A DNA stretch of 64,000 nt from Viola odorata (taxonomy: Eukaryota; Streptophyta; Magnoliopsida; Malpighiales; Violaceae): the NCBI GenBank assembly GCA_963691705.1, contig OY829537.1:67043352-67107351 (forward strand), read 5' to 3'. This document shows, in pieces, positions 24,691-47,122 of this stretch. The position numbers and the translations under genes are program-made. Numbering within the stretch: position 1 is the stretch's first letter; every line of letters begins with the position of its first letter. The notes beneath the pieces are model-generated. The model was not told where the DNA came from. It ran no database searches and saw only the letters and a list, made by a program, of their open reading frames with translations.

Positions 24691-24799
24691 TTTGACATAT
24701 CTCTGCACGTTTGGATAACGTTAGCAATAACATGTGTTAACACTCAAATTGGAAATATTCTTGTGCATTCTTGTGATTGATTACGTGCAGATAATGAAG

Positions 24800-26269: not shown

Positions 26270-26648
26270 CTATGGCGCTGCCGTCCCGCTGTCCCCCTGC
26301 CCCTCGCGATTCTGCGCCTTTGTATTGTAAAAATTGTCATTTTTAAGGACATCGGACTTCTCCAGAAAGACTTGAGTAAGGTCCTCATTGTGAAACGCCT
26401 CCTCCCCATAAAGCTGCACGAAGCAGTCGGACATGACGCCTGTGGTCGTCTCGCAATACCACTTGTATTTTTCCACCGACTCTTTCTCTAGTGCGGCCTT
26501 CTCCTCTCTCAGTGCCGCCTTCTCCTCCTCTAGTACAACATTCTTATTCTTCTCTGCCGCTAATTCAGCGTTAAGTGCAGTCATCCTAGCAGCTTCTCGC
26601 CCGTTAGCATCTTTCAACTCTTCCTTAACAATCGCCAGGGCTACCGCC
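26270..26648 (-). pseudogene. Antisense gene 4 of element A, C-terminal coiled coil
   Basis: The minus-strand frame reads AVALAIVKEELKDANG, then repeated E/K/A heptads (EEEKAALREEKAALEKE), then VEKYKWYCETTTGVMSD. It matches the end of gene 4 in element B (EEETIEKYMWYVENTAAI, near 33900-34000). It was cut from its upstream exons at 26649 by insertion of element B. The apparent start METIVTLIG at 26716 is B's LTR read in frame, not a real start. Confidence 0.8.
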
Positions 26649-27188
26649 TGATAAGATTCGAACTTTTGTGTGTCGGAAGGGGAGGTGGGGCCAATCAAAG
26701 TCACTATAGTTTCCACCGAATGTACCTACAAAGCGCCGAAGGGGGACTCCGGCGTAAACACTCCGATGCCTAAGTTAGTGAGGCGGTTCAAAATAGCAGA
26801 GGTTCCAGTTGCGATCTTAGGCTTACCTTGCGTTTTAAATGGTGGGGTATTTATAGGCCGTGTGAGGGCGTTATCTGGGAAAATAACACTTCCAGCGACA
26901 TCAAGGACGATATCTCCGAATGACGTCAGGGACGGTATCTCCAGGTGACGTCATGGGCGACAACTTCAAGTAACGTCATGGCTGTCCTGGGATGGGATAG
27001 CGCCGTGCGTGTAGGTGGATGACGCATGAGACCCCCCCCCTCCGCGCTGATGTCGACCATCCCAGGGCTCCTCGCTGGTTAAGGGGCGTCAACCTTCCTT
27101 GGCTAATCCCTGGCAGGCACGGTAGGGTTCCGGCCTTCGCAATGATACAAGGACGATAATACCCTTGAAGTATCCTTAATTGTTATCA
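26649..27188 (-). repeat. 3' LTR of element B (complete)
   Basis: On + it runs TGATAAGATTCGAAC ... CCTTAATTGTTATCA, 540 bp, with TG..CA ends. Its reverse complement aligns with the 5' LTR of A, including the ACTCCG..CTACGCCGGAGACCC segment and the TATA box. TAAGCCCAACTG next to it equals the sequence preceding A's 3' LTR (GGTTGGGCTTA, 47321-47331), confirming the LTR/internal boundary in both. Confidence 0.88.
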
Positions 27189-27324
27189 TAAGCCCAACTG
27201 AAAACGAGCCCGGGTGTTTACCAAGGGTTATCATTTCAGCTTCCGTTCAGATTGCGTGTCAACATGTGCGATATCGGGTGGCTCGGTCCTCGAGAAGCAC
27301 ATCTTTTATTGCCTTTTCTTGAGG

Positions 27325-27333
27325 CTTATAAAT
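27325..27333 (+). promoter_or_regulatory. TATA box of antisense gene 1 (B)
   Basis: CTTATAAAT lies about 60 bp before the ATG at 27393. The A copy has CTATAAAT at 47190-47183 (-), also 60-70 bp before its ATG, so the position is conserved. Confidence 0.6.
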
Positions 27334-27392
27334 TTGAATTTTCTTTGCACCAGTTACGCATCTTTTTAGCATTTCTTCTCCGTATTTGCATC

Positions 27393-27773
27393 ATGGACAA
27401 TCTTACCAAGAATTTTCTGATCTCCAAAACTCACCCTGAAGAACCTCAACGACGGTGACGTGGGCTTTCTGGAAAATATACTGATCAAGACATCTGAGGA
27501 CGTTCTGGAGCTTCAAGGAATGCTGACTCCCCTTCGGTCTAGGCTTGGTGTGGCTTCTTTGGAGGATTTCAATCCTTTAGAGTGTGTGTCCAAGTTGGCT
27601 GCTGCTGTCTCCCACATCGAGGTAGTGATCACTATGCTGCAACACAGGAAGGATCTGCTGAACTGCTGCTTGAAGGGCATGAGGATTTCTTCTGCCGGAT
27701 TGACCTCCGTGGCGGACGCTTTGAGGGAGGTCCCTACACTGTCAGAGGACGATGATGCTGGGTCCCAGGCTTG
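27393..27773 (+). pseudogene. Antisense gene 1 of element B, frameshifted
   Basis: It starts MDNLTKNFLISK, then a deletion of two bases (relative to A) after codon 14 shifts frame and stops at 27456-27458. The rest is open in 27460-27773: GFLENILIKTSEDVLELQGM, then FNPLECVSKLAAAVSHIEVV, then LKGMRISSAGL. The A copy (47122-46742) is 126 aa and uninterrupted. It is a small, probably helical protein of unknown function, and I do not recognise a named family. It is the first of four genes on the strand opposite to B's gag-pol. Confidence 0.7.
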
Positions 27774-28168
27774 ACTGTCGACCGTCGCCGTTCTACCTTT
27801 TCTTTTCTTTGTATAAATGTACGCCCAGGCCGTTAGGCCATAAATAAAATGTTTTTCTTTATGGGAGTCGCCGTTTCTTCTTGCCATGTGTCCGTTAAGA
27901 TTTCAATTGGTTGCCACATCAGCCCAACTGAAAACGAGTCCGTCCTCGGTTAGACTTTGGTAGTAGTTATCCTCGCGAACCGTTCTGTATTAATTTCACG
28001 CCGCCTTTTCAGTATCAATTGATTGGGCGGTTTTTTGGTGCTTATCGATCAGGGAGATCTTCCAATAGGCATGATCACAGGATTCAATTTTGCAATATAA
28101 CCCACTTTCGAAACGCACCAATTTTCTCAAAAATTGTGCGGGAAGATGGAAAAGCACCTCCTCCCCAG

Positions 28169-28176
28169 CTATTTAA
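28169..28176 (+). promoter_or_regulatory. TATA-like box of antisense gene 2 (B)
   Basis: CTATTTAA in CTATTTAATGGGATTTT, about 70 bp before the ATG at 28246. The A copy has the same CTATTTAATGGGA word on the minus strand (46291-46284). Confidence 0.5.
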
Positions 28177-28245
28177 TGGGATTTTCTCTCCCTTTTTCTA
28201 TTCATCTCTTTCCTCACGCTTTCTTGTTAGAATCATTTGCAGTTA

Positions 28246-28671
28246 ATGGCTGATTCCTATTCTTTAGACCTTACGGAACGCGACTCTCCTCCAACTCCTC
28301 CGACCTCTTCGGATTCTGATAATCCTCCTTCGCCCTCACGCTTGAAGAGGCGACTTCCTCGATGTAAAAGTCATAAGAGGTCAGGGAAAAGAACGACTTC
28401 GAAGACGGCCGACCCGTCTCCACTCGTTTATGCCTCACCTGTTCAGAATGGTGACGTTCTGTCTCCTCACGTCAGTCGCTCTATGGAGAGGGGTTCCATC
28501 AACGGTGTCGGTGCTGACATCGCGGCCACTGCTACCAAAGGGGAGCCAAGTTCACTAAAACTTTGTCAGACGAGGCACACCGAAGAACCCTTCCCGCCCA
28601 TTGCTGAAGAGTTTCCATCCTCGGATGAGGAATATTGGTACTAGCCTTCCTATTGGCCTGATGATGATTAA
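28246..28671 (+). pseudogene. Antisense gene 2 of element B
   Basis: It starts MADSYSLDLTERDSPPTPP, aligned to MDNSYSMDADERDASPTPQ in A. The protein has three parts: an acidic/Ser-Pro N-terminus, a very basic stretch (RLKRRLPRCKSHKRSGKR) that could be a nuclear or nucleic-acid-binding signal, and an acidic C-terminus (EEFPSSDEEYWY). A TAG at 28642-28644 falls just before the last conserved residues (PSYWPDDD, then TAA at 28669). The A version ends PSYWLGED, so the stop is a late truncation. Function unknown; no named family recognised. Confidence 0.65.
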
Positions 28672-28866
28672 TCTTACGTATCGTGCCTTTTTGTAGATGT
28701 CGTACGGCCTTGATGGAATAAAATTACGCTTTTCTCTTTCCTCCTTTCCTTAATCGTCTTTCCGCGTTAACTCCTTTCGCACTTGGTTAGTTATCGCTGA
28801 GAAGCAAGCTGCGGCTTGATGTGACCGTTTTGTCAGCTTCTAGTTAGTGGTTATTTTTCTTCGAGA

Positions 28867-28874
28867 ATATAAAT
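28867..28874 (+). promoter_or_regulatory. TATA box of antisense gene 3 (B)
   Basis: ATATAAAT in AATATAAATGCTTAG, about 270 bp upstream of the ATG at 29140. The A copy has GATATAAATGCTTGG at about 45571-45564 (-), about 310 bp before its ATG. Confidence 0.6.
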
Positions 28875-29139
28875 GCTTAGTCACTTTCTGTTTTGCACGT
28901 GTCTCGTTATCACAGACTGCTGGGCACTCAGGTCAACCTTTAAAAGGGAACCACTGTTCTCTTTTAACACTTTTGCTCGCGCTTTGAAATTATCTCTTAT
29001 CATTCTCTCTCTTTTGCTTCTTCCTCTATTCAAAGAAATTTTCTTCAATCGCTCATCGACATCGGCGGCCTATATACTGCCTTCTTGTTCCAGGTATTTT
29101 TGCCCCATTTTCCTCAGATTTTCTTCTTATTGGTTCATT

Positions 29140-31122
29140 ATGCGCATGACTAGAGACCCTAGGGGTCTTCAGATGCCCAATAGCTTTACCTGTGAAATGG
29201 TCTTGAAAGCCAAGTTAGAGGAGCATGGTATTTCCTTTCCTCCTGGTTTTTCCGTTAAGGTTCCTGAGGCGGGTCAACGGCTCCATAACCCCTTGCCCAG
29301 GAGTGACAGGATGGTCTACTTTAAGATGTTCCTTCATGGTTTTCGCTTTCCCATTCATGAGTCTGTAAAGAAATTGCTGCGTCAGTAAGATATCGACCCG
29401 GCTCAGATAACCCCTTCCTCTTGGTGCGGAATTTATGCTTTTCTTCGTGCTTGCGAACTGCAGGGTATACTTACTCCGTCTGTCAATTTATTCTGCAAAT
29501 TTTTTAGCTTCAAGTGTCGCAACTGTTTGGTCGATATCGCTCCGAGATGGAATGACGCATTCGCCCAGTCATTCTGGCAGAGGTTCAAGGGCTACGAGGG
29601 GACTGTAAAGGATTGGAAAAGTGGTTTCTTTATTGTTAGTTTTCCTTTCCGCCCTTGGCCTAGGGGCTTTAACCGCGGGCTTGTCGATTCAATTTGGGTA
29701 AACCCAGCAGTGTTGTCTAGGGAAGAGTTACATCAGGCCGTCACCTTGCTAGATATGAATTCCTCCTTCCGTATCCGAGAATTTGCCCTGTACCGGTTTT
29801 TGACGGAGTGTACTATAGGTGAGTTTCCTTTTTTTTTGTTATCATTACGACTTGCTCACTACTCTAACATGTCTTGGTGGTAGACGATACTGGAGACCGA
29901 TCGCCTGGCATGGATGCCGCTCCTTTAAACGTAACACCGCTTCAAATGCTACCGGCCTCTTCCCCACCCGATAGTTCCAGCCGTCAAGCCGCTTCGCCAA
30001 AAAAAGGAGGACTAAGACAGTTGCCGCGAGAGGGCGCGATATTCCCGCTCGGGCCTCTAGTTTTCTCAACAATTGGCTACCGGATCGAAGCAAGAGAATG
30101 ACCACGGGTCAACCCGAAATGAAGATAGTTGAGAGCGACAGCGAGGACATGGACCTCGAAGCTGGGTTTCTCCATGCTTCCACGGCGCAGCGGAAAAAAC
30201 TCAGAGTTGAGAAAACCACTCAAGCTGCTAGGATTTTTTCGAAGAAAGCCGATGAAGTCCCATTCACAAGCGTCGACCCTTCTACCGTGGTGACTACTTC
30301 TCGAGCGACAGAGGTTACTGAGGCGTCAGTGGTCATTCCCTCCGAGGTCGCTGAAAACCCATTGGTGCCTGACTCGGCTCCACCTATTGACGTTCCTGAC
30401 TCTCCCATTTCCTCTTATATTCCTGACGTTGTCGTGCCGCCTCCCAACTTGAGCATTCCTTCTGTTCCTCCACCAAGGAGCCCTCAACCATTACTCTTCA
30501 CATCCATTTCTGGCCTCGACAATTCCGTGGAAAGTTGCTCTCCTCCTTTTGTCGCCAACCTTTCTCCTTCGGACTCCCGAGTAGGAGTCTCTTCTTACCG
30601 CCTGGATCTGTCCACCTTTGGTACTCGCGGGCTTCGCGCTTTGGGGATATCGGACCCGCTATTGCGAGACCAGCCGGTAGGCTCTCTGGTGGGTGAGATA
30701 TTTGGCTCTCCCAAAGCCAAAGAGGAATTACTGCGTCTTCCCCCGATATCCAACGTGTGTGAGTTCTGAATAACGCTCTTGCCAGCTTTCGTGAAATGCA
30801 TTATTTTCTGGGCGCCCATGGTGACAAACTTCGAGGTTCCCCCGGCTTAAAAGAGCAGTTAGATGCCACCTTGGCCAAAGTGATGGAGTTGACTCAGCTT
30901 CAAAGTTGTACCCAGGCAGAGCTGGATGATTGTCGCGCCGAGCTTGCGAGGGAAAAATCAAAGGGGAAGGCCAAAGCAGAACTTTTAGAAGCGGAATTGG
31001 CGGTGGCTAAGGCTGAGTTGACGGTAGCTGACAAAAGAAACTCTTTTCTTCGTGAAGAGATATCGGCTCGGGATGCGGACTTGGCGAAGGTTTCTCCAAA
31101 GATGACTAAGGCGTTCCCATGA
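29140..31122 (+). pseudogene. Antisense gene 3 of element B: PF04195-like domain plus coiled coil
   Basis: Exon 1 (29140-29818) starts MRMTRDPRG and carries a domain seen in 'putative gypsy type transposon' proteins (PF04195 by resemblance): VYFKMFLHGFRFPIHESVKK, TPSSWCGIYAFLRACE, WNDAFAQSFWQRF. A conserved intron (29819-29883, GTGAGT..GGTAG) precedes exon 2. That exon has Pro/Ser-rich sequence, KKRRTKTVAARGR, an acidic patch (SDSEDMDLE), SLVGEIFGSPKAKEE and a final coiled coil (ELDDCRAELAREKSKGKAKA). Defects are a TAA at about 29387 where A has a sense codon, a frameshift near 29980 and another near 30755. The A copy has the same order and intron. It probably encodes an element accessory protein of unknown role. 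Confidence 0.75.
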
Positions 31123-31603
31123 TCAGATAGGGTTAGCACCAGAGAGGACTTCATTTCTTGTATTTCTCTTACTGGTCATTGGCTTGTTTCAGTTTGTAAT
31201 AATTGATGACGCTTGCCCCGTATTGTTGTTTGCAATTTTTCCTTGAACAAATAATCTTGATTCTGCTTTTCTGCGTTATCTTGTCAGCCACTAATTCGAT
31301 TATCGCCAAGTCGCGTTATCTCAGTCATCACGTCATCGCGCCATTGCGTCTATCTTGTTTCGAAAATCGATTCTTCTTTTCAGAGCATTTAATGCTCAGG
31401 ATTTCCTCATTAATGCAAATGAGGAGTCATGATGATCCAAGAGACACGTGTCAACTTGTAAGGGCGCCAAGGGTTAGCGTGCCCTAGGAATTTGTGAGAT
31501 CAAAGCGCCTTCTCACTTTTCAAGAATCGTATTCATTACCTACGCCTGTTCCTTGAGACGCCGTGACGACTGTTACAACAGTCATTTTACTTGACTTTTG
31601 CGA

Positions 31604-31611
31604 CTATAAAA
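31604..31611 (+). promoter_or_regulatory. TATA box of antisense gene 4 (B)
   Basis: CTATAAAA in GACTATAAAACCTAAC, about 175 bp before the ATG at 31784. The A copy has GGTTATAAAACCTGTC around 42484-42477 (-), about 165 bp before its ATG. Confidence 0.6.
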
Positions 31612-31783
31612 CCTAACACTTGTTTCTTTTTTCCACTTTTGTCATTTTACTCTTTCCATATTCTTTTGAGTCGGCTTCTGTTTCTCCTTTTCATCGTCTG
31701 GGTGCTCAGAGCTCCTCTCCTTAGAAAGGTATCTCTCGTTTGCCCTTACCGTCTTCTTCATCCTTTTAGCCTTTATTTCTGCT

Positions 31784-34131
31784 ATGACTAGGGCTCGTCG
31801 TTCTGGGTCTAAATCCCTTGACGAGGAAAAGATCGAGAACACCCTAGTAGCATTACTTCTTTAACCGCTCTTAATGAGCATCTAGCCGATCATCATGCCA
31901 CTATCCCGGAGGGCTATACGGTCTCCGTTGCCCCTGAATCATTACGCCTGAACAACATTTTGATCGGTAATCATAGGGTTCTATATGCCCAGATATTTCA
32001 TTACGGTTTCTGATTTCCTGTTGATTCCTTTGTGAAACAGTTGCTTACTACTCTTGATCTGAATCCCGTCCAGTTAACCCCAAACGCATATTGCTGTGTT
32101 TATGCTTTTCTGGAACTTTGCAAGTACAAAGGTATTAACTCTCCTTCCCTTCTGCTGCTTAAGTCTCTTTTCAAACTGTACAGTCGTCGGGGTGTGATAG
32201 CGATATCGACCCGTTATGACGATGACTCTCTTAAGAACTTCACCTGGAAGCTCCTTCATCTCGAGTCTTCCATTGAAGAGTGGAAAAAGGAATTTTTTGT
32301 TATTGAGATTCCTGATCAGCCAGACCCTTGGTGGTGATCTGGTTTTAAACAAGACGTCAAGGATAGTGCCTGGGGTCGGCGGGGGGTACTTTGCCAGCCC
32401 GAGCGAGGTTGGTTGGACAAACTACTTCAGCTGGAAATCAGCGTTCATACTCGCAACTTGGCATGTGGGATGGACATCCAACTTGCATCAGACGTGAGTG
32501 TTGCATTATTTTCTTCTTTATCGTAGTCTGTACTAACGCTAACGTTATCTCGTGATTATGGAGCGACCGATCCTGACCAGAAACCTGAGAGCGTTAAGAA
32601 ACGGCTTAGGAGGGCTCAACAAAGGAGGGAGAAAGAAGAAGCTATCGCTGCTGCTGCCGCCGTGGTTAACTCGACTGTACCACCTGTTGCTACCGCGAGT
32701 CTCGTCCAAGCGTCTTCTTCCCCGGTTGGTGAGGAATCCACTACTATCCCTCTCAGTGTTCCTGTCGTGTCTGTTGCCGCCTACCCTGCTCAGGCCTTTT
32801 CCTCTAGGGCTCCCTCGAAAGGAAAGAAAAAGAAAAGGACGAGAAGCGTTACCGCTCTCCCTCCATCTCCTGACGCAAAAGCTTCCTCCGAAGCGCCTGT
32901 TAACGATATCACTGCGGTAAACGCTTTTTTCCTAAATGTGTTATCCCACCCGCTGCCTTTTAATATAATTTTTGTGTTTTCTCTTATTTTCTTATCTCTC
33001 ACTACATTTTTCTTTGCAGGGCGTTACCACTGCTCCCGCTCACGCCTCCCCATCAAATATTATGAACTTGAACCACATACTGGCTCGTCCTACGAAGAAG
33101 GCGCGACCTGACGAGGGGGGCGCGAGCCCGCTGACGGGTTGCGTTGATACCGGGGGGAAGCCAACGTCACCACTGATTCCACGGTGGCTCCCGGGGATCG
33201 ATCTTCTGATTTTCTTGGGGGCCTTAGTGGTTCAATGCCCTTTGAATCCTCACTGCATTCTTTTGACACCTCCGCTCATCCCTTTTCCAGTGGTTTGGGC
33301 TTCAGCGAAGATTTGTCCGGTTTCTCTCCTCATGGTTCCTTCGGTCTTCAAGTGGGGACTTCTTCTCACCAACCTCTTTCTCCCTCTACCGTGGTTTTTA
33401 TTCCTTCTAGTGGTCCGATGCTTCGGCACTTTGGGGGAGGAGTGGTCGCACCTCACCTTATGGCCGATCTGAATTCGATGGGCGAATCTGGTCCTGTCAC
33501 TCTTCAGGTTGACTTAGCTAAACTACGCAGTTCCGGGTTTGCGGCTGTCGGGGGCGACAGTTCCGTCGAGGTTTCTTCCCTTTTGGCCGCTTATGCGTTA
33601 ACGTCCCCCGAAGAGCGGGAGGCCTTCCTTTCTCAACCCGTGGATGCACAGGTAAACTCGTTGCGCTCCAAGCTCTTTACTTGTTTCTCCAAGTTTCATT
33701 ATTAGGAGGAGCACATGTCGCATAAGGTCGCTACCCTTTCCGCCTCCCTAAACGGGCTCTCTAAGGAGAAAGAGAGGTTACTGAAGGAACGTCAGAAATT
33801 GCTGCTGACCTTGGCGATGGCATAGAAGGAACAGAGAGAGGCGCAAGAGCAGGCGTCCGCTGAGAAAACTAGGAATGCCACGCTGGAAGAGGAAAAGACA
33901 ACCTTGTTGGCAGAGAAAACGGCACTAGAGGAAGAGACAATCGAGAAATACATGTGGTATGTTGAGAACACTGCCGCTATCATGGCCACCTGCTTCTCAG
34001 AGATTCATGGGGAGGAGGTGTACCGTGGCGATGCCCTTTCTACCGCTTTCTTGGAGAAGTCCGTGCATCTCACCGACGAGGGCTTTCATCAGGCCAAGGC
34101 CGAGGGATACAAGAGTCGTGGACGTTTGTAG
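31784..34131 (+). pseudogene. Antisense gene 4 of element B: PF04195-like, multi-exon
   Basis: It starts MTRARRSGSKSLDEEKIEN. Exon 1 carries a second, diverged PF04195-like domain: LLTTLDLNPVQLTPNAYCCV, FLELCKYKGINSPSLLLLKS, LFKLYSRRGVIAIS. Intron 1 is about 32494-32563; intron 2 is 32917-33019 (GTAAAC..TTTGCAG); both have counterparts in A. Later exons hold basic KGKKKKRTRS, LMADLNSMGESGPVTLQVDL and a C-terminal coiled coil (33720-34131). Frameshifts occur near 31850 and 33150, and stops near 32010, 32336 and 33822. A stop after KFHY at about 33703 is also present in A, so it may lie in a short intron or mark the end of one ORF. Confidence 0.7.
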
Positions 34132-34805
34132 GGTTGGCCTACGCCGAGCGTTATCGCTCTGTTTTGCCGTTCAAGAGTCCTTCATTTTTGTCCTTGTCTC
34201 TTGATCCTTAAAGTTTTGGACTTTTGTTTTTGTAACCCTTCCGGGGCACTTATGAACAACCATATATTCGACTTCGTAATTTCGTTTGCTGGTAATTTTC
34301 TTTTCTTATCGAGTTGTGATGATGTGTGCGTCGGGAGATATCGCGGCATGACCTTTACATGCGCATTTCGACCATCACTCAGTAGATAACCTTCAAGGTA
34401 ACAAACTTGTAGAAAAGAGACGCGATTTCCACCGCTCTCAGCTTCCCGCAATATGTGGCGTATAATCGCATCGTCGCAGATGTTCTCGGCTGATGGCTTG
34501 GGATGGCTCGTAGATATATTCTGACATTCTCCTTGCCATGGGAATATTGCCATAATATACGCACCGTTTAAATCTCGTTTCCCCAGCCGCGTTAGCGAGA
34601 GAATCAATCTCCTCGTCGCATGAATAACATCTCTGCACATTTTCAGTTATAAGTCATCAGTAAAATGACATATACTAATAGACAATAGTTACCCGTGCAA
34701 GCCTTTCCGCTTCCGGCTCGAGTTGTTATTGCCGATGTCGCTCATATCGCTCTATCCACTAGCTATCTTCACCAGGGATTTCCCATCTGGTTACTTGCTG
34801 GGATT
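34132..34805. other. Element B spacer between gene block and repeat array
   Basis: 34132-34300 is likely the 3' UTR of antisense gene 4. The rest is the counterpart of 25216-26269 in A. The minus-strand ORFs here (34640-34182) are not shared by A and look spurious. Confidence 0.4.
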
Positions 34806-34809
34806 TCGT

Positions 34810-35190
34810 GATTCTTCACGTTTTCAACGGTCGGCCTGGAAAGTGCCTCATCTTAGTGAGCCGTCGGATCAGGACAGGCCGTCACAAGGCTAGGTTTTCC
34901 ACTTTCAGGCGTTGACCTCGCATCCTAGAATCGTGCCCTCACTTAGTGAGCCGTCTGTATTAGCCCGGTTATCACAAGGATAGGATTTTCACTTCCAGGA
35001 TGGAGTTACTATCTCTCTGGGGCATGCCTCTTCTTGGTGAGTCGTCTACACTAGACCGGTTATTACCAAGGATAGGACTTTTCACTCCCAGAGATGTCGG
35101 GACGCGCCTCGTCTTAGTGGGCCGTCTATGTTAGCCCGGTTTGCCACAAGGATAGGACTTTTCACTCCCGAGGGTGTCGGGATATGCCGC
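34810..35190. repeat. Tandem repeat downstream of element B pol
   Basis: About five units in reverse orientation relative to 24800-25215: GCCTCGTCTTAGTGAGCCGT, CTATGTTAGCCCGGTT, ACAAGGATAGGACTTTTCAC. It directly abuts the truncated integrase at about 35175-35190. Confidence 0.88.
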
Positions 35191-35356
35191 GATATCGAGG
35201 AATCTTAGAGAAGTCCTGACACTTTTGACAAGTCCGTACATAATTGTGGCAGTCTCTTCGAATGGTAGGCCAGTAAAATCCAGACCTAATGACTTGCGCG
35301 GCTAAGGTGTCACCTGATGCGTGCATACCACATATTCCTTCATGGATTTCTCGCAA
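35162..35356 (-). pseudogene. Element B integrase zinc domain, core deleted
   Basis: The minus-strand frame MREIHEGICGMHASGDTLAA ... SGFYWPTIRRDCHNYVRTCQ keeps the HHCC module (H, H, C, C visible), then runs straight into tandem repeat sequence (...KIPRYRGISRHPRE, stop). Compared with A, about 1 kb is missing, including all three DDE residues. Integration by this copy would need enzyme from elsewhere. Confidence 0.85.
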
Positions 35357-35452
35357 GGTGTGAAGGCCTTCTTGTTCTGTTATACACTTGGCCGCTGGGT
35401 GAGAGAAACATCTCCGGATCAGCTCTCCGTCGTAATACGTACACCTTGCTGC

Positions 35453-35965: not shown

Positions 35966-36002
35966 GTGGCCCGATCATGAAGATCCCGGCTCCCGCTAGT
36001 TC

Positions 36003-36962: not shown

Positions 36963-37059
36963 TCGTTGAAAGGTGGCTCATGTATTTTTCAGCCCAAACG
37001 ACATTGCCGTATAACAGTAAGTAGCTTTCGGGGTAATGAAAGCGGTTTTTTCTTCATCT

Positions 37060-40000
37060 TCAACGACCATAGGGATTTGATGGTATCCCGAATTGGCGTC
37101 TAGAGAGCTTAGATAGGCGTACCAGCTGATCAATTCGAGGAAGAGGGTAGCAATCTTTGGGACAGGCGTCGTTCAAGTCAGTAAAATCGGTGCACATACG
37201 CCAATCTTCGTTGGGCTTTGGGACAAGAACCGGGTTGGCTAGCCAGGTCGGGTATTGAACTTCTCGGATGAAGCTGGCGTCTAGGAGTTTGATCACCTCC
37301 TTCTCGACAGCTGACGCCTTCTCGGTAGAGAACGCGCGTCGCTTTTGCTGGATAGGCTTAGCGTTGGAGTCAACATTGAGTTGGTGTTCTGCCACCTCTC
37401 GAGAGATACCGGGCATGTCCGCGGGCCTCCACGCGAACTCTCCCTTACATTTGTGCAACAACCGAGCTAGCTGAATATTTTCCATAGGGCTAAGCTTTTC
37501 GCTAACTAGGAAGCTTGCTCCCTCGGTCCCGTTAACCGACACGGGTACCATCTTGTCTACTGGCTGAGTTCGTTTCTCATCATTTTGTTCGCATGGATCT
37601 ACCATTACACAGACGTACCTATCACAACTCTTCTGGGTCATGAGAAGGTAACACTCGGCCGCCAATTTCTGATTGCCTTTTATTGAGACTACTCCATCCC
37701 AATGTTTTTGCGATATCACTGCTCCGAAGCGGTTGAGGAAAGGTCTCCCCAGAATAGCGTTATAGGGTAGATTTAGGTCCACGACTAGGAATAACAGCTT
37801 CTCTGATCGCTTGGAGGTGTCCTCCCTGAAGTATGCAGGTAAGATGGTTACCCCGGTTACTGGGATCGGGACCCCGTCCACCCCAATAATCGGCTTCTGG
37901 CAGGGCGTCAACTCGCTATCGAGGCGTTTCATAAGATTATAAGCTTCCAATGAAAATAAGTTCACAGCGATTCCGTTGTCCACGAGGGTTCTTCTAATCC
38001 CATGATTAGCGATGACAGGTGTGACCACTAACGCGTCATTATGCGGATAGATGACGCCTTTTTCGTCCTCCTCAGAGAAAGACAGCACCATCCTATCCAA
38101 AGCACTTATCGCCTCGCTTTTCATTGTCGCACCCTCTCGCTTCCGCTTGTCTCCCGGTATTGGCACTAACTGCGTAGGCTCATCTAAGTAGGGGGTGCCT
38201 CCGACTATGATGTTGATTATAGGGACCTCGTCATCACCCACCATGAGTGTCTCTCTACCTCTTCCGACGGGGATATCGTTATCTCTTGGAATACGAGGGG
38301 GAGCTGGTCTATTATCAGCGGCTCTACCCGCAGGATTGTTCCTAGCTTCCTCTCTGGTCTTAGTGGCGAATTCTCCAAGATACCCTTCCTCTACTAGACG
38401 TTCTATCGATAGCTTCAATTCTCTGCACACTTCTGTAAAGTGTCCCTTAGCTTTGTGAAACTTGCAAAAAGCATTTTCTCTTCCCCCCATGATTACCCTA
38501 GGCTTAACGAGGGTGGGGTAACGAATGGGTAGGTTCCGCTGTTCCACAATCGCTAATATCTCTGCTCTTGGTAAAATAAGGGAAGGGAGGTCCGGGTCAT
38601 AAATTTGGCCTTTAGGAGGATCTCCTTGTCGTCGAGTAGGGCAATTGCTAGACTTCCCTTTGGAGGAATTGCCTCTTCGCCGGCTAGAGGCCTTAGGAAT
38701 GTGATCTTTTCGCTGTGCATATTCGTCAATAAAGCGATCTTCGGAAGTGGTGGTGGTAGGAGCGTTAAGGACTTGAGGTGCGTCTTGTAACACGTTTCGG
38801 GCTCTGTCCCTATTTTCTTCTTCTTCCATTCTTGCGTAATTGTGGGCTTTCAGCCTTAACGCATCTAAAGTCGCTGGGGGGTCTACCATTAACGCGTCTC
38901 TTAATTTCCCATAACGACAGTTCCGCTTCAAGGCTTCTATGGATAAATCCACGGTAACGCCAGGTGTCAATGACATTTCCAAGTCGAAACGACTAAGGAA
39001 ATCTCTCAACGATTCCAGAGGCTTTCGGTGAATATCAAATAAGGTTGCGGCAGATTTCCTGATGGGGACCACAGTGCTGAATCGACTTCGAAACTTAGAT
39101 TCCAACTGTGGGAAGCTATCAATAGATCTACCGGGAAGACCTTCAAACCAGAGGCGGGCAACCCCTGACAACGTCATGACAAATATTTGACACAAGGCTG
39201 CATCACTATGGGTCTGAAATTGTACGAAGTCCTTCACCTTGTTGAGATGAGAAATGGGATCTCTCGTACCATCATATGACTCTGTAGGAAGTTTCACATG
39301 CCGACCGACCCTATGACGCCTCACCTGATGACTAAACGGGTGTCCTGAAGTATCATCAAGAATTTCGCGCGTATGACGAGGGGGTGACACTCCCAGATGA
39401 CGCCTTCGATTACGCGGATCTGGAGTGTGATATCTCTGAGGGGACTGACTGCGATTCCTGGGTGAACGTGTTCGATGCCTTCTACTGCTGGACCTTTCAC
39501 TACGTTCAAGGGATACATTCCTATTCACTTTTTCTCGCTGACCGTCCCAACGGTCCCTATGCTCGTCGAGTCGCCTTTCTCCTTGGGGGATGGGAAATTG
39601 CGGCATATAAGACTCTACCTGTCCCTGGTCGAGTCGCATAAAGTTGATTGGAATATCCGCCGCAGGCATAGTTAACGGAACACTTCTGGGTTGTAAGGGC
39701 AATAGGGGTCGTTCAGCGACAATGGATGGTGCAAAAATAACCTGGGGTGGGATACTCGACCCGGAAGCCTCTGGCGCGATCCTCGCGGCCAGCTCAGTCA
39801 AGTAATCTAGGCGAGCATGAAGGGCAGATATTTCACCCGCGAGGGGGTTGTTTGTATCGCTAAGCGTGAGTCCCCTATAAGGAGAAGCATAAGAGCTGGA
39901 TCCCCCCGTCTAGGGCAAGGGAATGCTTATCTGGGAGGAAGGTGTTCCTCCTACTATCCTGAAGGAGAGATCTGAAGACTCTCCACTGATTTCTTGCATC

Positions 40001-40101
40001 ATAGTAGACTCATCAGTGGTGGCGAAAGGAAAAAGTCGTCTACGGATCGCAAAGGGAATGCTAGAAGATGGAGGCGGAGTAGACTCCGAGTCAGAAGCCA
40101 T
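37060..40101 (-). pseudogene. Element B gag-protease-RT polyprotein
   Basis: It starts MASDSESTPPPSSSIPFAIR at 40101, with one in-frame TAG at about 39912-39910. The frame is then open for 913 codons (39801-37060): capsid core (VKLPTESYDGTRDPISHLNK, VARLWFEGLPGRS), zinc knuckle CKFHKAKGHFTEVC, protease GIRRTLVDNGIAVNLFSL and YNAILGRPFLNRFGA, then the RT start MCTDFTDLNDACPKDCYPLP. The frame ends by a small deletion in RT. It is the least decayed Tat coding region in the window, which fits B being the younger insertion. Confidence 0.88.
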
Positions 40102-40189
40102 GGTTGGTTCGACTTTCCCAGGAAAAATGGAGCTTGGCTGTCAAGGATGCTCACTTAATCAACCAAAGCTCTCAACGAGAGCACCACTT

Positions 40190-40260
40190 TGATAAGATTC
40201 GAAGTTTTGGGAGTCGGAATGGGAGGTGGGGCCAATTAGAGTCACTGTAGTTTCCACCGA
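40190..40260 (-). repeat. Remnant of element B 5' LTR
   Basis: Only about 71 bp remain (TGATAAGATTCGAAG ... GTAGTTTCCACCGA), matching the first 71 bp of 26649-27188. Sequence of A's antisense gene 4 begins immediately after. A deletion removed the rest of the LTR together with any target duplication on this side. Confidence 0.82.
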
Positions 40261-42314
40261 TAACTTCTCCGCTTCCTCTCATTTCCTAGCGAGTTTGTCT
40301 GAAACCTGGTGATGGGCGTTATGCAGCTCGTTGGAGGAAGAAGTGAGGGAATAAACTTTCCTTGTCATGTGCCTGACCTAGTAATGGAAGTTGTGGAAAG
40401 TAGAAAATATATCAGAACGCACCGCATGCACTTGCTCCTCAGGAGTCTGAGAAAGAAATACTTCCTCTTCCTCATGGAGCGACAACACATAGGAGGCCAG
40501 CAAAGAAGAAGCCGCAGTAGAGCTATCACCCCCTACAGCTGCAAACCCAGTCTTAGGCAAGCTACCCAAGTCAATCTGATGAGTAACAGGCTCAGAATCG
40601 GATAGTGAACTCAAATCAGCCATAAGACGGGGAGCGACAACCTCCCCCTCAGAAGGTGGACACATTGGAGTATTCGAGGGAATAAAAAATAAAGTAGTTG
40701 GGGATGGAGGTTGACGAGAAGAAGTGCCCATGCCAAGCCCGAAGGAATCATGAGAGTGGTAGGCGGGAAAATCGGACTACGTTATGTCCCCAGTGAAGCC
40801 CATGACTTGGGAAATGGAAGGAGGAGGCGACGTGCCGAAGGAATTGGGCGAAACATGAAAGGGCCCGGAAATGCCCGCAGTCCTCAAAGGATCAGAAGCT
40901 TGACCCCCAGAAGGTGCATCAGAAACAAAGGTGACAACATCCCAATATCCCCCTCCTGATTGATAACGGGACCTGCCGATAAGCTTATGCCCTCCCCATT
41001 TTGTCGCGGTTTCTTGCGACGCTGCTGGAATACGTGGGACAAGTTCATGTTATCTTCTGGCGACAGGTGAGCAGAGGCAGCAGCAGTATCCTACAAAGAG
41101 AAATATTGAGAAAGATAAGAAAACGAAAGAGAAAGTTAGAAAATGTTAAAAAACGCAATACGCGAGATAACAAGGGCATGAAAGAAAGGCGTACAGTAGC
41201 GATATCGTTAACTGGCACCTCTGAAGAGATTACCATGCCAGAGGGAGGAGTAAGGGCAGCAACGCTTCTTCTCTTCTTCTTTTTCCTTCCGATGGGAACC
41301 TTGGAAGAAGATGCTTCGGTAGGAGTAACAGCGATAGACGCAGTCGGAATAGAAACGTGAACAACGAGAGATCCCTCGCCAATTCGAGAAGACGCCTGAA
41401 CAGAACTTATAGTCGCGGCAGATGGGAGAACAGGATTAAAGGCAGCAGCGGCAGCGGCAACTTCCTCCTTTTCTCTTTTCTTCTGAGCCCTTCTCTCCCG
41501 TCTTCTAACGCACTCGGGCTTCCAGCCGGGCGGAGGATCTGCATAATCGCGAGATAATGTTAGTGTTATTACCCCTCGAAATAACAAGGAAGATGACAAA
41601 ATACTCACTCTCAACACAAGCTCGAATATCGATCCTGTACGCCAGTTTGCGAGTATGAACGCTAAGGTTCAGCTCGAGCAATTTGTCTAACCAGCCTTGC
41701 TCAGGCGAAGGGAGAGGCCTCCGCCGACCCCAGGCCCCATCCCTGATATCGTGATTAAAACCGGCCCTCCACCAGGGGCTAGGCAGATTAATAATAAAGA
41801 ACTCATTTTTCCAATTATCAATCGAAGATTCAAGGTGCAAAAGCTTCCAGGTAAAAGGTTTTAGCGATTCATCATCATAACGTGGCGATATCACTATCAC
41901 ACCCCTACGACTATACAATTGAAAAAGCGATTGAAGCAGTAAAAGAGAAGGAGAGGTAATCTCTTTATATTTACAGAGTTCTATGAATGCGTAAATGCAA
42001 CAGTACGCATTAGGGGTCAACTGGACAGGATTTAAATCAATAGTGGTAAATAACTGTTCCACTAAAGGATGAAGAGGAAACTGGAAACCATAGCCGAACA
42101 TCTTGGCATACAAAAGCCTACGGTTGCCGGGCAATTCAATATTAAGGCATAGCGAATTGGGGGCAACTTCAACCGAACAACCCTCAAGAATGTGGGCATG
42201 GTGTTTAGTTAACTTCCGTTGAAGCACGGTCGGAGAAGTGATAGTGGTAACAATGTCTTCAATTTTTTCCTCCCCAACAGATTTGGGTTGAGGACAACGA
42301 CGAGTTCTAGCCAT
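40261..42314 (-). pseudogene. Antisense gene 4 of element A, N-terminal exons
   Basis: ATG at 42314: MARTRRCPQPKSVGEEKIED. The PF04195-like domain is uninterrupted in exon 1 (42314-41609): LFTTIDLNPVQLTPNAYCCI, LFQLYSRRGVIVISPRYDDE, WWRAGFNHDIRDGAWGRRRP. Intron 1 is 41608-41539 (GTGAGT..TTATGCAG). Exon 2 holds WKPECVRRRERRAQKK, Ala-rich sequence and GRKKKKRRS. Intron 2 is 41194-41091 (GTACGC..TTTGTAG), within a base of the length in B. Exon 3 continues toward LMADLSSLSDSEPVTH. A TAG after NFHY (about 40378) matches the B copy. Element B interrupts at 40260; the coiled-coil end is at 26648-26270. A TATA box lies near 42480. Confidence 0.78.
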
Positions 42315-42476
42315 GGCAAAAGTAAAAAGATAAAGAAAATGACAGAGGAGAACAAAAATACCTTTCTAAGAGAGAAACTCAGAGTGCCCAGACGGTGGAA
42401 AGAAAAAACGCAAGTCGGCTTGAGATGTTATGGAGAAAATAAAATAACAAAAGGAGGAAAAGAAGCATATGACAGG

Positions 42477-42484
42477 TTTTATAA
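42477..42484 (-). promoter_or_regulatory. TATA box of antisense gene 4 (A)
   Basis: On the minus strand GGTTATAAAACCTG, about 165 bp before the ATG at 42314, matching ACTATAAAACCTA in B. Confidence 0.6.
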
Positions 42485-43024: not shown

Positions 43025-45252
43025 CTATGAGGAAAGAAAACCTTCCTTGCTCCCGTCGATTTCACTTATTTTCGCAGAGGCATAATCGGCTATCTTAGGA
43101 GGATCGAAAGTCCTACTACGATAATAGTCCGCGAACCCGGCGGTAAAGGCCCACATAGATTTTTTCTTCCACCAACTTATCTTTGACGGAACCTTGGCTA
43201 AATTCACGCTACAGGCCAATATCTCTTCACGAAGAAGAGAGTTTTTCTTGTCAGCAGCCACCAACTCTGCCTCTAAGGCTTCAACTCTGGCTTTCCCCTT
43301 GGATTTTTCCCTAGCAATTTCAGCACGACAATCATCTAGCTCTGCCCGAGTACGATTCTGAAGTCGCGTCAATTTCCTCACTTTGGCCAAGGCATGGTCG
43401 AGCTGCTCCATCGAGCTAGATGAACCTTGAAGTTTGCTGCCGTAAGCCTTGAGAAAATAAGGCATTTTGCGGAAGCTGGCCAAAGAATCATTCAGAACGC
43501 GCGCGGGCTGAATATCGGGGGGAAGCTGTAGCAACCTCTCTTCATCTTCAGGCGAACCGAACATCTCACCCACTAAAATCGTCGTTGGTTGATCTCGCGA
43601 TAACGGGTCTGATACCCCTAGGGCACAAAGCCTGTCAATCCCAAAGTTTGACATATCCAACTGATAAGAAGGAGCCCCTTGAGGCCCTTGAGAAGAAAGA
43701 TTGGCTACGACAGAAGGAGTGGAAGTGCCGACAGAATTGCTAACACAAGAAACGGAAGTAAAGAACAACGGTTGAGGAACCCTCACCAGTGGATCAGGAA
43801 GTACGCTCGAGCTTGGAGCTGGCACCACCACATCAGGAATACAAGAAGAGATAGGAGAATGCGAGGCCTCAGTGGCAAGGGAAGAGCTTGTCGTCAACGG
43901 CGTTTCCGTTGATACCACAGAAACCTCGATAACGGGAGAGGGTCTCGTTATTGGGGGAACCTCAGTTGACTGCGAAAGAACGTTGGCAGCAGAGGAAGAG
44001 GGCATTAGTGGTAGAAAATCAACACTTATCAAAGGGAAATCTTTGGCGGTACCAGAAGAAGTGGCAATATCAGAGAAAACACGGGCCGTCAGTGGCGGCA
44101 AAGGAGGACGCATGGTAGTCTCAGTCACGTGATTTTCCTTCTTTTCCCTGAGTCTCTTTGGCTGAGCCTTAGAAATCTGACGAAGGCAAGACTCTGTGTC
44201 CATATCTTCACCCTCACCCGCACCTGCATATGAAAAAACCTCTGTCTTGACTGTTGGCGGACCTGAGCTAGACCTTATCTCCCGAACGGGGAACCAATTC
44301 TCCACAAAGCGAGAAGCGCGAGTAGAAACGCGCCCTCTTTGAAGGACCGCCCCCGAAGTTCTTTTCTTTAACTGGACGCTACAGTCAGGTGGAGCTCTGG
44401 AAAGTGTAGAAGGAGACGTCGATGGAGGAGGCACGGGTCTCAAACGAGCGCCATCCCCTTTGGACGATTGATTGATAACGCCTCCTGCAAAAAGTCACAT
44501 CAGTAAATGAAAAGGAAGAACGATAACGCTAGAATTTAAAGACTCACCTACGACACACTCAGATAAAGGCCTGTACAAGGCAAAGTTTCGAATCTGGAAA
44601 GGCGTCTCCATCTCTAACAAGGCGTCAACTTGAGCTAACTCCTTCCTAGACAAGACGACCGGTTTCACCCAGTCAGTATCGGTGATGCCCCGGTTAACGA
44701 CCCTACGCCATAAGTGGGAAGGCAACTCAACAACAAAGAAACTACCTTTCCAGTTATCAACGGTTTCTTCAAACTCCCAAAAATTTTGCCAGAAAGATTG
44801 GGCATATGCGTCATTCCATCTTGGAGTAACGCTCACTAAACCATTGCGACAAGTGAGGCTAAAGAATTTACGAAACAAATCAACAGAAGGGGCAAGAATA
44901 TTCTTCATTTCACAGGCGCGGATGAAAGCATAGATACCACACCATGATGAGGGCGTTATCTGCGCTGGGTTAATCTTACATTGACACAGTATATCCTCTA
45001 TCGAAGCATGAACAGGAAGGCGGAAACCATAAAGAAACATCTTAAAATACAACATCCTACGAGGTCCCCACAGGACATCGTAAGTCTCATATGCTTCTCT
45101 GGAAGTATGACGGTACAACCGCTGGGGAAAGAGATACCATGACTCTCTAACTCGAGCCGCAGAACGGTCTCACAAGTAAAAACACTTGCAGTATTCTCGA
45201 TCTCAGAATCTATAGGCTCCCGAGGGACAGTCTGAGATCTCGTGCGACCCAT
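43025..45252 (-). pseudogene. Antisense gene 3 of element A: PF04195-like plus coiled coil
   Basis: ATG at 45252: MGRTRSQTVPREPIDSEIEN, then CETVLRLELESHGISFPSGC. One frameshift near 45080 is needed to continue as RRMLYFKMFLYGFRLPVHAS, TPSSWCGIYAFIRACEMKNI and WNDAYAQSFWQNFWEFEETV. The intron 44547-44485 (GTGAGT..TTTGCAG) is at the same point as in B. Exon 2 (44484-43025) is fully open: Pro-rich, KKRTSGAVLQRGR, GEGEDMDTESCL, TILVGEMFGSPEDEERL, and the coiled coil ELDDCRAEIAREKSKGKARV. A TATA box lies at 45571-45564. The predicted spliced protein has about 715-720 residues; its function is unknown. Confidence 0.78.
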
Positions 45253-45563
45253 AATGAAGAGGTAGTAAAAAAGAAAACCAGAGGAAGGTGAAACAGGGTA
45301 CCTTAGAAAGCAGAACAGACGAATCACCTAAGTCGACGAGCAGTTGGGAAAATTTTCTTCAAGAAAAAAAAAAAAAGAGAGCAGAGAATAGAAGAGAATA
45401 GCAGGAAAAATTCGAAATGCGAGTAAAAGTTTGAGAAGAAAGAAGTTGTTTCCTTTTAAAGGCCAAACCTGACGAAGGTGACTAATTGGCCAAACAGAAC
45501 AAAACACACGTAAAACCGAAAATGACACATGGAAAGGTATCGGAAGAACATTTAAAGCCAAGC

Positions 45564-45571
45564 ATTTATAT
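45564..45571 (-). promoter_or_regulatory. TATA box of antisense gene 3 (A)
   Basis: On the minus strand GATATAAATGCTTGG, paired with AATATAAATGCTTAG in B. Confidence 0.6.
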
Positions 45572-45758
45572 CTTTAGAAGAAGAAGGCAGTTAACAACAA
45601 GAAGTTAAAAAGACGGTTGCGCGGAGCAGTAACCAACCGCTTGGCGTTAACTACCCAATGATTACAAAGTTAACGCAAGAACACAACAACGAAGGAAAGA
45701 AAATGGGGAACACTACTTTATTCATGAAAAATCCATACGACATGCATAACGGGCAAAG

Positions 45759-46217
45759 TCAGTCCTCGCCGAGCCAGTAGGAAGGCCAGTAGAAATCATC
45801 TTCATCCGAAGACGGCAGTTCTGCGTCAAGTAAAGGGAAGGGATCATCAGCCTTTTTCTCTTTGCCAAACCCTGACCGAGGGTTCTCTGAAGGTTTTTTC
45901 ATCTTCGAAGGAGTTGTGCACGAGTCCCCCTTGACGGCAGAAGCCGTAATTTCAGAACTAACGTCGCTAACTGGGATTTTTTCCATGAAACGACTGATGT
46001 GAGGAAATAGTTCATCACCCCTCCTTACCGGAGGAGTATAAGAATTCGAGCAAACATCGAGGGACCCAGAAGTTTCCTTTTTCGATCTCTTGCGACCCTT
46101 ACGTCGAGAGAGTCGCCTTTTTCGACTCGGCGAAGAAGGATAGTCAGAATCGGGAGAAGTTTGAGGAGTTGGTGAAGCGTCACGCTCGTCCGCATCCATG
46201 GAATATGAGTTGTCCAT
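45759..46217 (-). CDS. Antisense gene 2 of element A (152 aa, open)
   Basis: An uninterrupted minus-strand ORF, MDNSYSMDADERDASPTPQT. It has a basic central run (SRKRRLSRRKGRKRSKKE) that looks like a nuclear localisation or nucleic-acid-binding signal and an acidic, aromatic C-terminus (SSDEDDFYWPSYWLGED). It aligns end to end with the B copy at 28246-28671. A TATA-like CTATTTAATGGGA lies at 46291-46284. No named family is recognised. It is a retroelement accessory gene rather than a host gene. Confidence 0.65.
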   Translation of the reverse strand: MDNSYSMDADERDASPTPQTSPDSDYPSSPSRKRRLSRRKGRKRSKKETSGSLDVCSNSYTPPVRRGDELFPHISRFMEKIPVSDVSSEITASAVKGDSCTTPSKMKKPSENPRSGFGKEKKADDPFPLLDAELPSSDEDDFYWPSYWLGED

Positions 46218-46283
46218 GAAATTGCAAGCAATCTCAACAAAGAAACGAAATGAAGATGAACAGGAAAAAGAAAAAAAATCCCA

Positions 46284-46291
46284 TTAAATAG
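46284..46291 (-). promoter_or_regulatory. TATA-like box of antisense gene 2 (A)
   Basis: CTATTTAA on the minus strand inside the word CTATTTAATGGGA, shared with B, about 70 bp before the ATG. Confidence 0.5.
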
Positions 46292-46741
46292 TCGTGGCGA
46301 AAGAGCATTCCTACCTTTTCGCACACCCTCTGAAAATAATTAATACGCCTTGAAAAGAATGATCATAATCGCAAAATTGGATCCTGTGATCACGCCTGGA
46401 GGATATTCGCATTGATCAAGAGATGCTGAAAAAACCGCCCAATCAGTTGGCATTGAAAAGGCGACGCAAAATTAATGCAAGAAACGGTTCGCAACAACCT
46501 TTAATCACCATTTGGTGAATAAGGAAAATCAAGTATTGTGGGAATCCGATCAACGGCATGCCCGTTTTCGATTGGGCTAAGGTTAGTCCCAACTAACACG
46601 ACGATTACACACCACAGAGAGTAGAATGTCACAAGCAATATAACGGGAAGATATTTTATTTATGGCCTAAATGGCCTGAACATACGTCCGCATACATATA
46701 AAATACAAAAGATAAAGGAACACAAGGACGACTGCAAGCGG

Positions 46742-47122
46742 TCAGGCATTGGACTCGGCGTCATCATCTGGCACGGGAGGAATCTCCCTCAGAGCATCCA
46801 CCACCGCAGTCAGTTCGGAGGAAGAAACCCTCATGCCCTTTAAGCAGCACCCCAGCAGATCCTTCCTTTGCTGCAGCATAGTGATAACCACCTGGATGTG
46901 GGAGACAGCAACAACCAACTTCGATACACTCTCTAGAGGATTAAAATCCTCTAAGGAAGTCGCTCCTTGCCTGGACAGAAGAGGGGTCATCATCCCCTGA
47001 AGTTCCAGAATGTCCTTAGAAGTCTTAATCAGCATGGTCTCCAGAAAGCTGATGTCGGCTTCAGTGAGATTCTTTAGAGTATGGGCCTTGGAGATCAAGA
47101 AATTTCTGGTCAGTTCATCCAT
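46742..47122 (-). CDS. Antisense gene 1 of element A (126 aa, open)
   Basis: An uninterrupted minus-strand ORF, MDELTRNFLISKAHTLKNLT, then DISFLETMLIKTSKDILELQ, FNPLESVSKLVVAVSHIQVV and LLGCCLKGMRVSSSELTAVV, with an acidic end. It aligns with 27393-27773 in B, where a 2-bp deletion breaks it. It is predicted mostly helical, with no named domain recognised. It is the promoter-proximal gene of the block, only about 210 bp from A's 3' LTR, and has a TATA box at 47190-47183. Confidence 0.68.
   Translation of the reverse strand: MDELTRNFLISKAHTLKNLTEADISFLETMLIKTSKDILELQGMMTPLLSRQGATSLEDFNPLESVSKLVVAVSHIQVVITMLQQRKDLLGCCLKGMRVSSSELTAVVDALREIPPVPDDDAESNA

Follow-up and report, generated by a model that had tools for sequence, protein, structure and literature searches.

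A subfamily-specific DNA word accompanies an antisense, intron-bearing block of TRP28 genes in Retand-type retrotransposons of Viola odorata

The 64,000 nucleotides of Viola odorata analysed here (the window; contig OY829537.1, positions 67,043,352 to 67,107,351 of the forward strand) hold two nested long terminal repeat (LTR) retrotransposons, element A and element B. Each carries four genes, g1, g2, g3 and g4, in one shared order and antisense to its own gag-pol, which confirms what a first, sequence-only reading of the window had described. The first gene, g1, codes for a helical protein of 126 residues and g2 for one of about 150 residues, basic and then acidic, and both g3 and g4 join a TRP28 module (PF04195) to coiled-coil stretches. 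An antisense TRP28 gene is known from such elements; the block of four genes with TRP28 twice and with introns is a new elaboration on it, and a subfamily-specific DNA word that accompanies TRP28 is new as well. We consider this word the part most worth following.

Two nested elements and their antisense genes

The two elements consist of the following features, given in window coordinates.

18328-47555, plus strand: element A, a Retand/Tat-type LTR retrotransposon with element B nested inside
18328..18816, plus strand: 5' LTR of A, right end approximate; three CGTTATC words (18486, 18508, 18555) in its U3, upstream of the CCTATAAATACCCC box
19181..24700, plus strand: decayed gag-pol of A, with gag, RNase H and integrase zinc finger in separate pieces; end approximate
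46742..47122, minus strand: g1 of A, 126 residues, open; TATAAAT 67 nt upstream of the ATG and AATAAA 81 nt past the stop
45759..46217, minus strand: g2 of A, about 152 residues, open; TATTTAA box 73 nt upstream and AATAAA downstream
43025..45252, minus strand: g3 of A; the TRP28 module is in exon 1, which is frameshifted and runs to about 44548; past an intron at about 44547-44485, exon 2 (44484-43025) holds a Ser/Pro-rich region and a coiled coil
41195..42314, minus strand: exons 1 and 2 of A g4 (TRP28 module; KR-rich exon 2), with intron 1 at about 41608-41540
40261..41090, minus strand: proximal part of exon 3 of A g4, with stops, behind intron 2 (about 41194-41091)
26270..26648, minus strand: distal end of A g4 (coiled coil), severed by element B
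47332..47555, plus strand: truncated 3' LTR of A, 93.3% identical to the 5' LTR across 224 bases
26649..40260, minus strand: element B, Retand/Tat-type, inserted in g4 of A in the opposite orientation to A
40190-40260: the only remnant, 71 bases, of the 5' LTR of B
39909-35453, minus strand: gag-pol pieces of B
31784..34131, plus strand: g4 of B, interrupted by stops; it has a TRP28-like module, a KR-rich exon 2 and a coiled coil
29140..31124, plus strand: g3 of B (TRP28 module; intron about 29819-29883), with a stop and a frameshift
28246..28668, plus strand: g2 of B, with one internal stop
27393..27774, plus strand: g1 of B, frameshifted
about 26649-27187: 3' LTR of B
26897..26978, no strand assigned: tandem repeat in the 3' LTR of B, whose 25-base consensus unit joins CGATATC to GACGTCA

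The span from 47122 down to 26270 had been read as the block of element A. It is indeed one block, interrupted within g4 by the 13.6 kb of the nested element B. The blocks of A and B align at 66-71% DNA identity in self-BLAST pieces. Since its LTRs are 93.3% identical, A is not a recent copy. Frameshifts, stops or both affect A g3 and g4 and all four genes of B, and the reading frames of A g1 and g2 are open; because both copies are decayed, the window holds fossils of the block.

By their domain content and antisense TRP28 region, A and B appear to be Retand elements of the Tat clade of Ty3/gypsy. Separate pieces match the Pfam domains gag (PF03732), Integrase_H2C2 and RT_RNaseH in A and RVT_1, RVT_3 (PF13456) and RT_RNaseH in B, that is, Ty3/gypsy domains plus a second RNase H-like domain (RVT_3), which serves as a mark of Tat elements (PMC6317226). 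Moreover, both elements have a long region between pol and the 3' LTR with an antisense TRP28 open reading frame (ORF), and the antisense block takes up about 7 kb.

A TATA-like box precedes each of the four genes, at distances that are alike in A and B (g1 -67/-66, g2 -73/-76, g3 -208/-202, g4 -169/-178, where the B g3 and g4 starts are set one base off). AATAAA or AATAAT lies downstream of g1, g2 and g3 in both elements, and no poly(A)-like signal was found within 220 bases of B g4. In further copies the box pattern used was present at g1 and at g4 in 3/3, at g2 in 1/2 and at g3 in 1/3. Both kinds of signal are short and were counted without a chance control; they fit separate antisense transcription units. 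The sequence-only reading had proposed separate promoters; its description of the cassette as operon-like is not supported, given the per-gene promoter-like boxes together with the poly(A)-like signals of g1 to g3.

The introns are conserved. The donor of the g3 intron (about 63 nt in A) is GTGAGT in 18 of 19 loci and GTAAGT in the other one, with GCAG or ACAG as the acceptor in 17 of 19 (TAG in B, changed in L017). Intron 1 of g4, 68-70 nt long, begins with GTGAGT in all 12 loci where exon 2 was found and ends with GCAG in 11 of them, the changed one being that of B. The anatomy suggests an advantage of the antisense layout: the genes could have introns, terminators and promoters of their own, all invisible to the genomic RNA that is reverse-transcribed, so that this RNA would be neither cut nor spliced.

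The g2 protein of A consists of a Ser/Pro-rich N-terminus, a basic run resembling a nuclear localization signal and an acidic-aromatic C-terminus. Such acidic-aromatic tails can activate transcription, and with its basic run followed by this tail g2 resembles a small activator; it is fast-evolving (46217-45759 and the type C copies introduced below). The predicted model of g1 is weak, with four helices and a predicted local distance difference test (pLDDT) score of 67.

The block in other copies and selection on its proteins

A PF04195 profile search of the same 699 Mb genome returned 11413 candidate places. All 150 that were scored matched, and 30 of these, picked by hand, were fetched, 20 with 10 kb and 10 with 5 kb. 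Of the 20 longer reads, 14 have the four-gene layout (type C), with 57-61% identity to A across g3 exon 1, and six have a single TRP28 gene (type D). In 13 of the 14 type C loci g1, g3 and g4 follow the same order on one strand; L014 has only g3. No g1 match was present in any of the six type D loci in their 10-kb reads. A full-length ORF of the g2 kind (134-152 residues, with similar start and end) lies between g1 and g3 in 10/16 type C loci; it is short in L016, and in five others it is outside the two longest ORFs. Beyond g4, reverse transcriptase was found on the opposite strand in all four continuations (L029-L032). One further locus, L015, has two g1 copies on one strand 2.6 kb apart (6365-9359), perhaps two neighbouring element ends.

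Ratios of nonsynonymous to synonymous substitution (dN/dS) are NG86 pairwise medians from our own script, computed on stop-free pieces that cover at least 60% of the query, a filter that biases them towards low values. Left out were the row for the first exon of A g4, where g3 and g4 matches are mixed, and A-C, B-C and C-D pairs with saturated dS; g2 has diverged too far for the calculation. Between the two C subgroups (C1-C2), dN/dS is 0.09 in g1 (32 pairs) and 0.08 in g3 exon 1 (40 pairs), and within D it is 0.13 in g3 exon 1 (55 pairs). Further values are 0.22 in g3 exon 2 (3 pairs), 0.20 in g4 exon 2 (6 pairs) and 0.17 at the end of g4 (10 pairs). Between A and B, three pieces gave 0.20-0.23 with one pair each (g1 0.20, g4 exon 2 0.23, g4 exon 3 0.23). 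Higher ratios occur in g4 exon 2, at 0.33 for A-C (7 pairs) and 0.44 within C1 (15 pairs), and g3 exon 2 gave 0.26 within C1 (3 pairs); a rise of this kind is expected if copies decay once inserted.

Ratios far below 1 show that the antisense proteins were of use during the active period of the families. The proposed usefulness of the block to the element is thereby borne out, by its presence in other copies and by exon dN/dS. The sequence-only reading had also named what would speak against it, namely absence of the block from other copies, dN/dS near 1 on internal branches or host genes private to this pair of elements. None of these was observed, and the block in other copies rules out captured host genes confined to A and B.

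The TRP28 module

The proposed search of the four translations with PF04195 succeeded for two of them: g3 and g4 match (E-values of 2.9e-12 for A g3, 2.3e-6 for A g4 and 3.1e-4 for B g3, the last below its cut-off), and neither g1 nor g2 does. In g3, in g4 and in the D gene alike, the first exon encodes a homologous module of about 230 residues, in whose alignment 20 columns are invariant, and 23/23 such modules match PF04195, which spans residues 63-128 in the first member of the alignment. A Pfam scan of the module gave nothing except PF04195 above noise.

The AlphaFold model of the module is confident, with a mixed alpha/beta fold, a pLDDT of 86 and a predicted template modelling score of 0.85. 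A sequence search of the PDB with the TRP28 profile returned a single match at E 0.45, which we take as noise. Searching a large protein collection for homologues of g1 and of the TRP28 alignment yielded nothing, which has no bearing on rarity, since PF04195 proteins are known in plants and the collection is presumably plant-poor.

A subfamily-specific DNA word

A recurrence of GTTATC/GATAAC was first seen by reading the sequence. The words that it led to have the form TANCG and differ between subfamilies: TAACG in A, TAACG and TATCG in B, TATCG in C and TACCG in D. They occur in LTR promoters, in intergenic DNA and in pol, mostly at positions that are not homologous between subfamilies. With homologous duplicates taken out, the sites share a frame, which is G-A-TAACG-C/G in A, G-N-TAACG-C and G-A-TATCG-C in B, TATCG-C in C and TACCG-G-T-A in D.

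Across the window CGTTATC was counted 34 times (4.6 expected), and 32 of these copies lie within 18328-47555. By subfamily, the extended words are in excess over 100 dinucleotide shuffles per set. Both parts of A together hold 22 copies of CGTTATC (1.4 expected), and B holds 18 of CGATATC (1.6) and 10 of CGTTATC (1.0). In type C, the sets with pol have 23, 21, 31 and 23 copies of TATCGC (about 4 expected), and L023 and L013 have 15 and 12 (2.3 expected); the expectation ranged from 2.3 to 4.4 over these six sets. Eight type D loci have 12, 11, 12, 22, 5, 7, 16 and 14 copies of ACCGGTA where 0.3-0.6 are expected. The left host flank contains 1, 0, 0 and 1 of the four words and the right one 1, 1, 4 and 2, and TAACG and TATCG show no excess in the flanks.

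A second-order Markov ranking of all 512 five-mers, covering 11 element sets and two host flanks, agrees with the shuffles. The family word ranks first or second in 10/11 element sets. TAACG leads in A and in B, where TATCG comes next; TATCG tops two of three C sets and is second in the third, and TACCG tops four D sets and is second in a further one. For the two host flanks, the rank of TAACG is 440 and 483 of 512. The excess also survives a 40-base spacing filter. Across the fetched loci, and with a z of at least 3 required, TATCG is the foremost TANCG class in 15/17 of type C, counting a tie with TAACG in L033, and TACCG in 12/13 of type D; the word thus follows the TRP28 clade in 27 of the 30. 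Because different words lead in A, C and D, the word is not a mutational habit shared by the genome.

Coding DNA takes part in the enrichment. Relative to synonymous-codon shuffles, pol has 9, 5, 5 and 6 TATCGC in four C copies (2.7, 0.9, 1.7 and 1.1 expected), and TAACG 13 times in A (6.5) and 19 times in B (7.3); since the pol core exceeds these shuffles, the word is not forced by the encoded proteins. Among three rows of C antisense exons, L021 shows an excess of TATCGC (6 against 1.2), and L012 and L024 show none of TATCG or TATCGC; a row of joined A antisense exons, read in wrong frames (58 stops), was discarded, and four rows of D exon 1 were too short to be informative. The gag-pol of A holds 12 TAACG on each strand and that of B 12 and 7, which makes a role as an RNA signal unlikely. 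When the 28 TAACG of the antisense region of A are compared with B, five stay TAACG, six fall in gaps and 17 differ, three of these being another TANCG. Conservation at 5/22 ungapped sites is about twice the 10% for all CG-containing five-mers, which suggests that some sites are old and that most turn over with their density kept.

The word is dense in LTR promoters. The 250 bases before the CCTATAAATACCCC box contain 5-7 TATCG in all five C LTRs found and four TAACG in the A LTR, and about one or two full TGACGTCA sites per C or A LTR lie there as well. At least four words of the same class stand ahead of the box in 6/7 LTRs with the exact box. The B LTR is weaker, with two TAACG, one TATCG and one TACCG.

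Tandem repeats multiply the word too. As in the 25-base unit of the B 3' LTR, a 24-base unit in the L016 LTR joins the subfamily word to GACGTCA. In four type D loci the TRP28 gene is followed by an array (L022, 116 bases x 14; L025, 114 x 5; L027, 116 x 5.1; L042, 101 x 5.7), each unit of which holds two or three TACCG words. Non-coding LTRs and D repeats are thus dense in the word, yet pol is in excess as well. Tandem arrays are common between pol and the 3' LTR of Retand elements (PMC11963269); in the open-licence PMC literature, mostly seen as listings, we found no report of arrays that multiply a family word. Another word cluster lies in the type D locus L042, where 4371-4893 is dense in TACCCG/ACCCGC in both orientations and holds 24 of 25 ACCCGC sites.

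Discussion

The antisense genes described here extend a known feature. Retand elements are abundant in some plant genomes, antisense TRP28 ORFs are characteristic of the lineage, and they occur in 97% of the clusters of recently active elements (PMC11963269). The long region between pol and the 3' LTR, the antisense PF04195 ORF and the tandem repeats there are shared with our elements. That survey took an ORF-level view (ORFs of at least 600 bp; 104 antisense ORFs in 63 clusters); the word "intron" is absent from its main text, and the excerpts consulted do not mention per-gene promoters from its own data, paired TRP28 genes or a family-specific word. In contrast, the Viola block has four genes, two TRP28 paralogues, conserved introns and a dispersed cis motif. 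Maize Grande gene23 and rice RIRE2 likewise have an antisense accessory gene between pol and the 3' LTR, and for Grande transcription from its own promoter and a nuclear protein are reported in a review (PMC7264820); only one gene is described in the excerpts, and the likeness to g1-g4 is one of layout. Among retroelements at large, PMC11963269 mentions the antisense gene HBZ of HTLV. It lies at the 3' end of its element and has a nuclear, regulatory product.

HBZ is a single gene driven from the 3' LTR, and we know of no relation between its protein and the antisense genes here.

The closest functional parallel comes from the VANDAL DNA transposons, whose VANC proteins demethylate members of the family that encodes them by binding a short family-specific motif, which tandem repeats multiply (PMC5735166, PMC10398659). 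As in VANDAL, the Viola families have element-encoded proteins kept by selection, as judged from dN/dS, and a short motif over-represented in the own family and present in tandem repeats, and motif and protein diverge together. This is a parallel in how the systems may work and is no claim of homology. By this analogy, we propose that TRP28 proteins recognise the element that encodes them by its sequence and switch it on or lift its silencing; to this reading, with activation through anti-silencing, we give a probability of about 0.48. The genes, their introns, the selection, the motif enrichment and the way the motif follows TRP28 clades are observed; the binding of TRP28 to the word, and its consequences, are what we infer here. 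Sunflower Retand elements show locally reduced CG and high CHG methylation (PMC12844716), a pattern compatible with anti-silencing by TRP28 that does not prove it.

In this mechanism the TRP28 proteins (g3 and g4, or the single protein of type D) would recognise the double-stranded TANCG word with its flanks, which is spread across the element and, next to GACGTCA sites, is dense in the LTR promoter. An element bound in this way would be marked as self and transcribed more, most likely because DNA methylation is counteracted, as it is by VANC in VANDAL. The g2 protein would be a candidate co-activator, by its basic run and acidic-aromatic tail, and g1 a candidate helical partner. Of the functions guessed at by the sequence-only reading, RNA handling and nuclear import gained no support; silencing suppression is kept alive as chromatin anti-silencing because a dispersed family-specific word points to DNA recognition.

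A bolder form of the proposal, which we hold more tentatively, is a Retand self-recognition code. TRP28 would read TANCG, the variable base (A, T or C) and the flanks would define the subfamily, and only an element's own kin would be de-silenced. Equally tentative is the further thought that such a code would be written into the whole element, coding DNA included. If true, no earlier anti-silencing code of this kind would be on record for LTR retrotransposons within the literature searched, and the antisense TRP28 genes and the adjoining tandem arrays would both be accounted for. Plant LTR retrotransposons would then have evolved discrimination of self from non-self DNA, with self-only de-silencing, apart from VANDAL, and TRP28 would offer natural DNA-binding modules with altered specificities. 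The motif is a concrete prediction of TRP28 targets, subfamily by subfamily.

Several observations weigh against the proposal. DNA binding by TRP28 lacks support from its fold, because the predicted model matched no solved structure (fold search, VIA-align) and no viral model; the missing match does not prove the fold new. The Viola word contains a CpG and is in excess in coding DNA, unlike the published VANC motifs, which have no CpG and lie in non-coding sites. About four independent lineages separate the motif classes and related copies are not independent; therefore, the correlation of TRP28 with the motif could be plain co-inheritance. Exceptions to the correlation are L034 (TATCG z 2.9), L011 (TAACG 3.6 above TATCG 3.2) and L033 (both 3.2) in type C, and L040 (TACCG z 2.2) in type D. 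ACCGGTA occurs just twice in L038 and once in L040, and L042 outside its repeat array is led by TACCCGC, with TACCG at rank 106. In the pol of A, CGTTATC is not significant by codon shuffle (3 against 1.3, p 0.106), and its sites favour one strand in the 5' LTR (3/3) and the antisense region (8/9) of A. Finally, the right host flank (47600-64000) has 24 TACCG against 9.0 (z 4.6; rank 10 of 512 and z 2.9 by the Markov model), perhaps as remnants of a D-type element.

Other explanations share part of this evidence. TRP28 might bind the word as an ordinary auto-regulatory factor, activating the LTR and antisense promoters or repressing them by feedback, with methylation unaffected. The clusters of own-class words beside TGACGTCA sites ahead of the LTR box and the TATA-like boxes of the antisense genes would suit such a factor; we regard it as somewhat unlikely, as the word is found throughout the elements, even in pol, beyond what a promoter factor needs. 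Quite unlikely, in our judgement, is that a host factor or the integrase or gag reads the word and that the antisense proteins serve nuclear import, choice of integration site or another step. CpG-containing words may be readable by host proteins, TRP28 binding is itself conjectural, and the antisense protein of Grande is reported to be nuclear (PMC7264820), but a shared host factor does not explain different words among subfamilies of one genome.

The two remaining explanations would make the word or the proteins irrelevant. Base composition varies among elements, which together with the relatedness of copies and the TACCG excess in the right flank could suggest a functionless mutational or compositional by-product. 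This is very improbable, given that the excess survives dinucleotide shuffles, the Markov model and the spacing filter, that the pol core of A, B and four C copies exceeds synonymous-codon shuffles, and that families of the same genome have different leading words, with TAACG and TATCG at no excess in the flanks. Such regions are reported to be transcribed in antisense, and roles for the RNA have been proposed (PMC7264820), which would allow the region to act by antisense RNA only, through double-stranded RNA; we find this extremely improbable, because selection acts on the proteins (dN/dS of about 0.08-0.3 in most exon comparisons) and splice sites are conserved.

Other features of the window

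Where the 3' LTR meets the interior of the element, a stretch of about 45 bases with agcccaac and gaaaacgagcccg is nearly unchanged in A (47280-47340), B (27180-27240) and C (L021 1630-1690, L023 2050-2110), and is partly repeated behind g1 (about 46560-46590 and 27915-27945). It is perhaps a plus-strand priming or regulatory site. Outside the two elements, a direct repeat of 300 bases, 94% identical and 4.5 kb apart (6241-6540, 10733-11032), probably represents the LTRs of another element, and tandem repeats of about 55 bases lie with related repeats at 1996-3106. The segments 49172-52142 and 57722-58486 are presumably host gene fragments, resembling by eye a ubiquitin-specific protease and a neutral/alkaline invertase.

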